Assembly: GCA_014382345.1 (NCBI GenBank)
Contig: JACNJX010000049.1
Location: 19,176-83,175 of the forward strand
Source: Alphaproteobacteria bacterium
GTDB taxonomy: Bacteria > Pseudomonadota > Alphaproteobacteria > Rhodospirillales > Casp-alpha2
Direction of reading: 5' to 3'
DNA: 64,000 bases
Part shown: positions 44,714-47,302 of the stretch, in pieces
Position numbering within the stretch: position 1 is the stretch's first letter
Layout of the letters: each line of letters begins with the position of its first letter
The notes under the pieces: model-generated
Database searches by the model: none
Told to the model about the DNA's origin: nothing
The model's input: only the letters and a program-made list of their open reading frames with translations
Made by a program: the position numbers and the translations under genes

Positions 44714-44772
44714 AAGAAAAAGCCAGACGGCCTGTAAGCCGCGCCCTGTCCGCCCTGACCCGAAGGCCGGGG
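44714..44772 (-). pseudogene. Decayed duplicate of the rnpB 3' end
   Basis: This 59-base stretch matches the 3' end of the intact rnpB (46892-46950) at 53 positions. The first 28 bases (44714-44741) are identical, including the T-tract region and the 3' arm of the P1 stem. The rest of rnpB is absent. The universally conserved ACAGAA of RNase P RNA reads ACAGGG in this copy, so it should be inactive. Orientation is the same as intact rnpB. Confidence 0.8.
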
Positions 44773-44799
44773 GACAATGACGGCGGTGATTTATTCATG

Positions 44800-44828
44800 T
44801 TGACGGTAAAAAATTATCGGCGCTAAAT
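44800..44828 (+). promoter_or_regulatory. Candidate promoter of the fusion gene, with flanking inverted repeat
   Basis: TTGACG (44800-44805), 17 bases, then CTAAAT (44823-44828), about 110 bases before the ATG at 44941. GTTGACGG (44799-44806) and CCGTCAAC (44836-44843) are an 8-bp inverted repeat flanking the promoter, which could be an operator or part of a recombination site. Confidence 0.4.
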
Positions 44829-44940
44829 CCAGTTTCCGTCAACGCTTTCCGCGCCAAGACGGTCGATTGGGCCGAGGCCGGGCATTTTCTGGAGTAAAGA
44901 CAACACGGTTCAACGCGTTCCCGCCACCAAAGGGCCCCCC

Positions 44941-46872
44941 ATGAAACCCAAAGCACCGACCCGCCGGACCCTCGGTCCGGTTTCCGACCTTGAACGTCAT
45001 CTGCCGGCTGAGTGGTGGCGGACGCTGTTCAACGCCGTGTATCTCAGGACCGACGGTGATGTGGTCGAGAACGACACCAACACACAAGCCGATGTGGACC
45101 TCGTCATCGACGCCATCGGCCTGGAAGTCAACGACCGCATCTTAGACCTGTGCTGCGGCCAGGGACGGCACAGCCTTGAACTTGCACGCCGTGGTTTCCG
45201 CCGGATCACCGGGCTCGACCGCTCCCGCTACCTGATCCGCCTTGCGCGCAAGCGCGCCAAGGAAAGAGGATTTGATGTTCGGTTCCGGGAAGGCGACGCG
45301 CGCAAGTTCGCGTTCCGGGGGAATGACTTCGACTGCGTCCTGGTGATGGGGAATTCCTTTGGTTACTTCGACCAGGAGGATGACGACCTGGCGGTATTAA
45401 GCACCGTTTCGAGGGCGCTCCGGCCGTCAGGTAAGCTGTTCATGGACGTCACCAACGGTGATTGGATGCGGGAAAATTTCGAACCCCGTTCGTGGGAATG
45501 GATTGACGAGAACCATTTCGTCTGCCGAGAGCGGTCGCTATCCGCAGACGGGGATCGCCTGGTCTCACGCGAAGTCGTGGTTCATGCGGAGAAAGGAGTG
45601 ATCGCGGACCAGTTCTACGCCGAGAGGCTTTACACCCGTGACCGCCTTCACCAGCTTCTCGGCGAGGCGGGCTTGTACGACATCCGGTTTCACGACGAGG
45701 TCGAGACACTTTCGTCCCGTGGCACCGACCTCGGCATGATGGCCCGGCGCAACATTGTCAGCGCACGCACGTCGGCGTCAAAGAAAGCGGCCAAAGGCGC
45801 GCGTGGGGCGCTATATCCCGACGTCACCGTGATTTTCGGCGACCCCCGGTTGCCCGACACGATCAAACGGGGCTGTGCGTTCAATCCCGAGGATATCGAG
45901 ACCATCGACCGGTTCAAGGAGGCAGTCGGAGAGCTGGAAGAATACCGCTTCACCTATATCGACAACCATGCGGCGCTACTGAAGACCCTTCGGGAAGAGC
46001 CTCCGGCCTTTGCTCTCAACCTCTGCGACGAAGGGTACAACAACGAGGCGACGATGGAACTCCACGTGCCAGCGGTGCTCGAAATGTTGTCCATCCCTTA
46101 TAGCGGCGCTGGGCCGCAAGCACTGGGTCTTTGCTACAACAAGAGCCTGGTCCGAGCCGTAGCCGCCACCTGTGAAGTGCCAGTGCCGCTGGAAACGTAT
46201 TTCGACGCCGATGACCAGTCGGCGACTATCCCTTCCATCTTTCCGGCACTCATCAAGCCGTGCATGGGCGACAGCAGCATCGGCATTACCCAGGACGCCG
46301 TCATTCAAGACCCGGCGGAGGCAATCGCCTACCTGGGCAAGCTCCGGCACGCGTTCCCGGGTCGGCCGGTTCTGGTGCAGGAATTTCTCTCCGGCGCGGA
46401 ATACAGCGTAGGCCTTATCGGCAATCCTGGCGTCGATTTCATAGCGCTCCCCGTCCTCGAGGTGGACTACAGCAACCTCGACCCAAGCTTGCCCCAAATC
46501 CTCGGCTACGAATCGAAATGGCTGCCCGATTCGCCCTATTGGAACGACATCCGCTACCTCGAGGCCAATATCCCCGACGACCTTCAACGGCTGTTGGTCG
46601 ATTGGTCAATGACCCTGTTCCAGCGCCTGGGCTGCCGCGACTACGCTCGTTTCGACTTTCGCGCCGATGCCGCAGGTGACGTCAAGCTGCTGGAGGTTAA
46701 CCCCAACCCAGGCTGGTGTTGGGACGGCAAGCTGAACCTGATGGCCGGCTTCGCGGGCTATCGCTACCCCGACCTCGTGCGAATGGTGATCGAAGCGGCG
46801 CAACGCCGATCCATTATCGAAGAACACAAGCCATTGAACACCGAACAGAACCCCACCCACGCCATGGTGTGA
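44941..46872 (+). CDS. Fusion of SAM methyltransferase and D-Ala-D-Ala-ligase-like ATP-grasp enzyme
   Basis: A 643-residue two-domain enzyme. Residues 1-270 are a class I methyltransferase: ILDLCCGQGRHSLELA (67-82) is the SAM loop, GLDRSRYLI binds the ribose, and DFDCVLVMGNSFGYF is motif IV-like. Residues 295-620 are an ATP-grasp ligase related to Ddl: IPYSGAGPQALGLCYNK, K439 in ALIKPCMGDSSIG, E481 in VQEF, and the metal ligands D572, E585 and N587 in LLEVNPNPG. All catalytic positions look intact. It would methylate a small molecule and join a carboxylate to an amine, perhaps an amino acid; the substrate is unknown. It stands alone between two rnpB 3' ends, which suggests acquired cargo. Confidence 0.8.
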   Translation: MKPKAPTRRTLGPVSDLERHLPAEWWRTLFNAVYLRTDGDVVENDTNTQADVDLVIDAIGLEVNDRILDLCCGQGRHSLELARRGFRRITGLDRSRYLIRLARKRAKERGFDVRFREGDARKFAFRGNDFDCVLVMGNSFGYFDQEDDDLAVLSTVSRALRPSGKLFMDVTNGDWMRENFEPRSWEWIDENHFVCRERSLSADGDRLVSREVVVHAEKGVIADQFYAERLYTRDRLHQLLGEAGLYDIRFHDEVETLSSRGTDLGMMARRNIVSARTSASKKAAKGARGALYPDVTVIFGDPRLPDTIKRGCAFNPEDIETIDRFKEAVGELEEYRFTYIDNHAALLKTLREEPPAFALNLCDEGYNNEATMELHVPAVLEMLSIPYSGAGPQALGLCYNKSLVRAVAATCEVPVPLETYFDADDQSATIPSIFPALIKPCMGDSSIGITQDAVIQDPAEAIAYLGKLRHAFPGRPVLVQEFLSGAEYSVGLIGNPGVDFIALPVLEVDYSNLDPSLPQILGYESKWLPDSPYWNDIRYLEANIPDDLQRLLVDWSMTLFQRLGCRDYARFDFRADAAGDVKLLEVNPNPGWCWDGKLNLMAGFAGYRYPDLVRMVIEAAQRRSIIEEHKPLNTEQNPTHAMV

Positions 46873-46899
46873 CCACGGCAGGAACGCGAAAAAGAAAAA

Positions 46900-47302
46900 G
46901 CCAGACGGCCTGTAAGCCGGGTTCTGTCCACCCCGGCCCGAAGGCCGGGGATAGATGGCCATTCATCTGGGACGTCCGTTACCGGACGCCTCACGCGACC
47001 TACCCGGGCGACGACGCGAAAACACGCCTGCCGGAACGAGTCCGGCGCACCGCCCCTATTTGGTCTTGCTCCCGGTGGGGTTTACCCTGCCGTCCCCGTT
47101 GCCGGGAACGCGGTGCGCTCTTACCGCACCCTTTCACCCTTACCCTGAGGCCGGAGCCCGCAAGGCGGTTTGCTTTCTGTGGCACTGTCCCTGGGGTTGC
47201 CCCCGCCGGCCGTTAACCGGCACCGTGTTTCCGTGGAGCCCGGACTTTCCTCCCCCCGCTGGGTTTCCCCGTCGCGAAAGGCGGCCATCCAACCGTCTGG
47301 CA
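46900..47302 (-). ncRNA. rnpB: RNase P RNA (class A)
   Basis: The catalytic RNA of RNase P, about 402 bases, which trims the 5' ends of tRNAs. The 5' GCCAGACGG (47293-47301) pairs perfectly with the 3' CCGTCTGGC (46900-46908), forming helix P1. The conserved GAGGAAAGTCCGGGCT lies at 47237-47252 and the 3' ACAGAA at 46922-46927. A run of U follows the 3' end. The promoter at 47309-47336 places the transcript start at about 47302, in agreement with the P1 helix. Confidence 0.95.

Follow-up and report, generated by a model that had tools for sequence, protein, structure and literature searches.

A 2,116-nt segment carrying a single gene has been inserted at the 3′ end of rnpB, the gene for RNase P RNA, in an alphaproteobacterium of the order Rhodospirillales, leaving the older rnpB end displaced and decayed on the far side of the segment. 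The window analysed here is the whole 64,000-nt stretch of DNA, taken from contig C38 of the genome designated G000, and all positions are those of the window. The features of the locus are:

43815..44288, minus strand: mraZ, the left native neighbour (tblastn, 58-94% identity in 18 of the 20 loci compared)
44289..44710: native rnpB-mraZ spacer, now downstream of the displaced end (alignment with G001-G006, G008 and G009)
44711..44772: far repeat copy, the displaced, decayed old rnpB 3′ end (55/62 to the near copy; mraZ-side flank aligns with empty-site relatives)
44773..46888: inserted segment, 2,116 nt, absent from the mraZ-rnpB spacer of eight same-genus genomes
44941..46872, plus strand: sole gene of the insert, a predicted 643-aa fusion of a SAM methyltransferase and a D-Ala-D-Ala-ligase-like ATP-grasp domain (ORF; Pfam Methyltransf_25, 8.9e-22; Dala_Dala_lig_C, 3.4e-18)
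46889..46950: near repeat copy, the working rnpB 3′ end and U-tract (repeat search; matches the relatives' conserved rnpB end)
46897..47300, minus strand: rnpB, RNase P RNA class A, complete (Rfam RF00010, 308.8 bits, model positions 1-367 of 367)
47333..48004, minus strand: N-acetylmuramoyl-L-alanine amidase (AmpD-like), the right native neighbour of rnpB (Pfam Amidase_2, 5.3e-37; conserved position)

A sequence-only reading of the window had matched 44714-44772 to 46892-46950 at 53 of 59 positions, 28 of them in a row and in the same orientation, and our search reproduced that match exactly. The full direct repeat pairs 44711-44772 with 46889-46950, identical at 55 of 62 positions with a longest exact run of 28, in the same orientation and at a spacing of 2,178 nt. 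It comprises the final 54 nt of rnpB and 8 nt of the U-tract, and the RF00010 placement agrees with the earlier claim that the match is limited to the 3′ end of RNase P RNA and its U-tract. Seven differences separate the copies, among them the loss of ACAGAA already noted in that reading, which has become ACAGGG in the far copy. Three of the differing sites fall in the conserved ACAGAACCC stretch, where the near copy has the bases of the 12 relatives compared and the far copy has derived ones; the other four lie in a variable hairpin or in the U-tract. A genome-wide search with the near copy recovered itself and the far copy alone (E 5.6e-17 for the latter), with the next match only 17 nt long (E 0.05), and with two copies in the genome a common terminator repeat, the alternative raised alongside the first reading, is ruled out. 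Longer far-side homology into rnpB was plausible by eye, but similarity past the 62 nt is not significant (336 of 1000 shuffles reach the local score). ARAGORN detected no tRNA in the window.

Alignment with close relatives, the check proposed for this locus, shows mraZ and rnpB adjacent without the segment in all eight scoreable genomes of the same genus, where 365-436 nt separate mraZ from the rnpB end. Nine were examined, and the ninth, G007, could not be scored because its contig begins about 124 nt from the rnpB end. By the same measure the far copy in G000 lies 446 nt from mraZ, the position of the live rnpB end in the relatives, and its mraZ-side flank aligns with the rnpB-mraZ spacers of the same eight genomes. 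Past its U-tract the near copy runs into the end of the cargo gene and not into native flank. The flank alignment and the 446-nt distance identify the far copy as the native end, still in its original place, and the newcomer is therefore the 2,116 nt that separate it from the near copy: the locus is a real insertion scar at the rnpB 3′ end. As in a genomic island, an intact target gene is accompanied by a same-orientation 3′ fragment displaced downstream, the interval is absent in relatives and the displaced fragment keeps the native flank; no integrase gene lies within the interval. When the long-gap genomes G010, G011, G014, G015, G018, G024, G033, G041 and G045 were searched for decayed second rnpB ends, none matched at more than 17 of 24 positions.

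The insert is made up of an intact 1,932-bp ORF with 168 nt and 16 nt beside it, leaving 184 of 2,116 nt outside the ORF. The gene is convergent with rnpB, and its stop codon lies 16 nt from the repeat. That a single cargo gene remains and that no integrase accompanies it were both borne out, the one long ORF between the copies being the methyltransferase/ATP-grasp gene. G000 has four PF00589 matches, none of them on contig C38. Against NCBIfam, the cargo protein did not reach the cut-off in the best 25 of 64 models, and its methyltransferase part aligns with a portion of one PADLOC model, mad2. The composition of the gene (GC 60.4, GC3 74.5) is close to that of its neighbours. Homologues occur in 16 of the 79 relatives searched, including four of nine within the genus. 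At the three same-genus loci where the start is present, the start codon or a position just past it marks the onset of DNA similarity; where the end is present, similarity stops inside the ORF. Viral contigs and plasmids were both searched and gave no copy of the gene, so a virus- or plasmid-borne cargo found no candidate. The homologue in G016 (L317; G016:C5:215336-217204) has two in-frame stops and looks broken.

At one of 19 loci carrying the fusion gene, a tRNA-like 3′ end stands beside it. In G079 the stop codon of the homologue lies about 120 nt from a partial tRNA-Arg-like 3′ end (L318:72-101), near the contig edge; this end matches the tRNA-Arg CCG of that genome at 27 of 30 positions, and a whole tRNA was not called there. 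Taken alone, this juxtaposition would lend weak support to a link between the gene and RNA-gene ends.

The rnpB end was then sought as a pattern across the order, where it matched 288 of 317 genomes and gave two sites in four: G000, G016, G232 and G104. With a shorter pattern 273 of 317 matched, and G268 and G272 joined the genomes with a second site. An insert-type second end is present in three of the 317 genomes, one of them provisional (G232). In G016, which belongs to another genus of the same family, a complete rnpB (331.2 bits) is followed by an insert of about 1.1 kb, a displaced rnpB end (93% over 82 nt), a GIY-YIG-like ORF recognised by eye, and mraZ. The insert holds two small-protein ORFs, one of them DUF805, and its empty site is provided by G033, where the same ORF and mraZ side are joined directly to rnpB (79% over 877 nt, counted from the rnpB end outward). 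In G232 (L120:1-1240), a complete rnpB (320.1 bits) is followed by about 0.7 kb bearing a BrnT toxin gene (PF04365, 1.1e-22) and an HTH gene, and lastly by part of a second rnpB end, identical over 134 nt and cut by the contig edge. G232 is likely a third insertion at rnpB, provisionally so because the contig stops within the second end and a fault of assembly is possible; that the second end is partial and follows a two-gene interval argues against a mere contig-edge artefact. The cargo is convergent with rnpB in G000, G016 and G232, and its last stop codon lies 16, 0 and about 5 nt, respectively, from the rnpB end. None of the three inserts contains an integrase, and no integrase motif was found in the 40 loci fetched (39 with an rnpB end), with a motif that misses some integrases, such as that of the viral contig L099. 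The repeat begins 23 nt upstream of ACAGAA in G000, about 43 nt in G016 and 105 nt in G232.

The remaining double sites were not counted as insertions. The two rnpB ends of G104 each have their own mraZ and are on two contigs, the additional site in G268 involves contig edges, and that in G272 is on another contig with one mismatch. A sample of the phylum, in which the rnpB end matched 319 of 398 genomes, gave extra sites in G323, G548, G432 and G526. In G432 and G526 the ends are on two contigs, while G548 and G323 have tandem rnpB tails, at a spacing of about 190 nt in the former (L122, 1500-1950) and of 281 nt in the latter (L121). Two rnpB ends on different contigs, as in G104, G432 and G526, may reflect a split assembly, contaminating DNA or the presence of two rnpB genes. 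In one genus the rnpB-mraZ interval repeatedly holds genes for small membrane proteins of the DUF805 type (L072, L075, L116).

A search for integrase genes next to partial rnpB 3′ ends, also suggested by the first reading, found them elsewhere, in viral contigs and in Clostridium. Scans of the viral contigs gave 19 stretches, 65 stretches and, in one further scan, at least the matches considered here. In the viral contig 3300035388_000034 (41.7 kb), an rnpB end cut by the contig edge (RF00010, 147 bits) lies 50 bp from an integrase gene, with a displaced rnpB end near the opposite side. A second, 3300023232_000003 (L242), carries a whole rnpB (291 bits) 115 bp from an integrase gene. Partial rnpB ends also stand beside integrase genes in L099 and L095, where no second end or empty site was seen and the ends may be chance matches. 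All four integrases match PF00589; when they were compared, one pair was 37% identical, and the longer matches of the other pairs had 21-25% identity, apart from a single match of 48 residues at 42%. Among the 190 viral pattern matches listed, an integrase motif lies within 1 kb only in L095, L242 and L297; the L099 integrase was missed by this filter and was recognised from its ORFs. By eye, most of the remaining matches look like chance matches or whole rnpB genes, and L274, L291 and L257 appear to have partial rnpB ends. Complete RNase P RNA genes also occur within tRNA arrays of the viral contigs L084 (463 kb), L087 (162 kb), L096 (190 kb) and L097 (31 kb), at 208-280 bits to RF00010, and L086 has a weaker one at 71.6 bits, under the gathering score.

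A genome scan for the Clostridium-type rnpB end gave 17 stretches. In Clostridium sp. LS, contig 904 ends in a whole rnpB (294 bits), and contig 11 holds the continuation of that rnpB end together with an integrase piece 94% identical to that of L242 over 35 residues. Contig 37 (20,230 nt) ends in a partial rnpB end, and its last 60 nt and its length are those of an IMG/VR viral record. Contig 183 starts with a partial rnpB end, followed by 88 nt and a further integrase piece (70%); the same 88 nt are found after rnpB in C. beijerinckii HUN142, in which 8 kb of sequence gave no integrase match and which comes closest to an empty site. C. chromiireducens (L334) was excluded as an empty site by integrase segments 62 nt from rnpB, 78% and 72% identical to the L242 integrase. 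There is apparently more than one element at the same rnpB site across the LS loci (L326, L330, L332, L333) and L334, and the site seems to have been used repeatedly in these genomes. The repeat starts 6 nt before ACAGAA in 3300035388_000034 and 3 nt before it in LS.

We hypothesize, at a level of confidence a little short of even, that the segment in G000 was brought in by a tyrosine integrase, which it does not carry, through site-specific recombination at the 3′ end of rnpB. The incoming DNA would itself carry the final ~54 nt of rnpB and the U-tract, in the role of attP, and the integrase would join this incoming tail to the resident rnpB end. Recombination would thereby rebuild a complete RNase P RNA gene, and the displaced end would then be free to mutate. 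The integrase would have acted in trans or been lost, the segment no longer carrying one or never having done so. Support for this mechanism comes from the geometry, the empty sites, the further cases with the same layout and the integrases at rnpB elsewhere; a phage-type enzyme is likely, given that virus-like DNA bearing integrase genes occupies this site in other bacteria. Counted against integrase entry are the lack of an integrase in the three inserts, the lack of a common repeat start, the 40 fetched loci that showed no integrase motif, a cargo found in no mobile element, and the rarity of insert-type second ends, at three of 317 genomes. Repeats starting 23, ~43 and 105 nt before ACAGAA, as against 6 and 3 nt in the phage-type pairs, share no common start. 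The proposal in the first reading that an element integrated at the 3′ end of an RNA gene is partly supported: the insertion and the empty site are borne out, and an integrase may have placed this segment, which has none inside and a repeat start unlike that of the phage-type pairs.

The strongest rival, to which we assign a sizeable minority chance, is homology-facilitated illegitimate recombination with no site-specific enzyme. DNA of a related strain with the gene after rnpB would recombine through homology with rnpB itself or with sequence upstream of it, and the opposite end of this DNA would be joined at random within the terminal part of the resident rnpB, creating the far copy. Such one-sided homology explains the absence of an integrase from all three insertions as well as the unequal block lengths in G000, G016 and G232. 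For the G016 insert a donor arrangement exists, since DUF805 genes lie between rnpB and mraZ, without a displaced end, in G041 and G045 (genus g8, ~30% identity), and recombination with such a relative is a fair alternative there. For the window gene, however, no donor arrangement was found in the 14 relatives in which both it and rnpB were located: the two are on separate contigs or, in G027, 0.8 Mb apart. A weaker route, which we consider improbable, has two steps, in which the rnpB tail was duplicated in tandem, as in E. coli, and the gene was later inserted between the copies by an unrelated event. Tandem rnpB tails do exist, in E. coli K-12 at 113-nt spacing as well as in G548 (three) and G323 (two), but the order's 317 genomes showed no short tandem tail, and the insertion would have to strike exactly at the junction two or three times. 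An assembly artefact or chance similarity is very hard to credit even for an assembly of 121 contigs, since the copies differ at 7 of 62 sites with an E of 5.6e-17, both are inside an 83-kb contig with conserved neighbours on either side, and a second case exists in another genus (G016).

A broader form of integrase entry, which we regard as rather unlikely, would make the rnpB 3′ end a widespread, uncatalogued attachment site. Unrelated tyrosine integrases would use it in several groups, and in this order it would also receive integrase-less, cassette-like units with one or two small genes each (methyltransferase/ATP-grasp, a DUF805 pair, a BrnT toxin/HTH pair) whose coding ends at the rnpB tail and which are moved in trans. 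rnpB is an essential gene, and its end has one matching site in nearly all genomes matched, so DNA landing in rnpB must rebuild it. This makes rnpB a strict test of target preservation by integrating DNA. A one-gene unit flanked by an RNA-gene tail would rank among the smallest integrating units and would point to integrases acting in trans. Island finders that are restricted to tRNA and tmRNA genes and that apply the Islander filters, with an integrase and at least 2 kb required, would overlook such sites.

Several known systems resemble the locus in part. The rnpB repeats of E. coli likewise place parts of the rnpB 3′ end after an intact gene, but they form 113-nt tandem units with no cargo gene between them; in place of short tandem units with a spacer that repeats the downstream flank, the window has a single pair of copies 2,178 nt apart. 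An integron cassette gene ends at its attC, and the small cargo of G000, G016 and G232 similarly ends at an rnpB tail that resembles a recombination site. In contrast to cassettes, the site here is the tail of an RNA gene, the cargo is convergent with the target, and no integron integrase was seen.

In the available text on Islander, an island consists of a tDNA and a displaced tDNA fragment with an integrase between them, and intervals without an integrase or shorter than 2 kb are rejected (PMC4383910). The window is like these islands in its intact RNA gene, same-orientation displaced 3′ fragment on the far side and foreign DNA between; it differs, by that same text, in having rnpB as its target, one cargo gene and no integrase of the kind the filter requires. 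Of the islands in the TIGER/Islander resource, 33.8% are reported to lie within tRNA or tmRNA genes, 43.4% within coding sequences and 22.8% between genes, and the resource's main text, in the parts available, mentions neither rnpB nor RNase P (PMC12424338); the available text of PMC12884075 does not mention RNase P. In the accessible parts of six other papers, rnpB is named only as a promoter, annotation item, phylogenetic marker or reference (PMC8776855, PMC2386152, PMC2516327, PMC2705793, PMC3541175, PMC5462765). The literature searched, with partial coverage and few subscription papers, yielded no paper on rnpB as an attachment site. Also similar to the window are the integrase-bearing elements at rnpB, 3300035388_000034, 3300023232_000003 and those of Clostridium sp. 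LS, which share its target end and, in 3300035388_000034 and LS, its displaced end. Those elements carry tyrosine integrases and, in the pairs with both ends visible, have a repeat that starts 6 or 3 nt before ACAGAA, whereas the repeat in the window, outside this Clostridium-type range of 3-6 nt, starts 23 nt before it.
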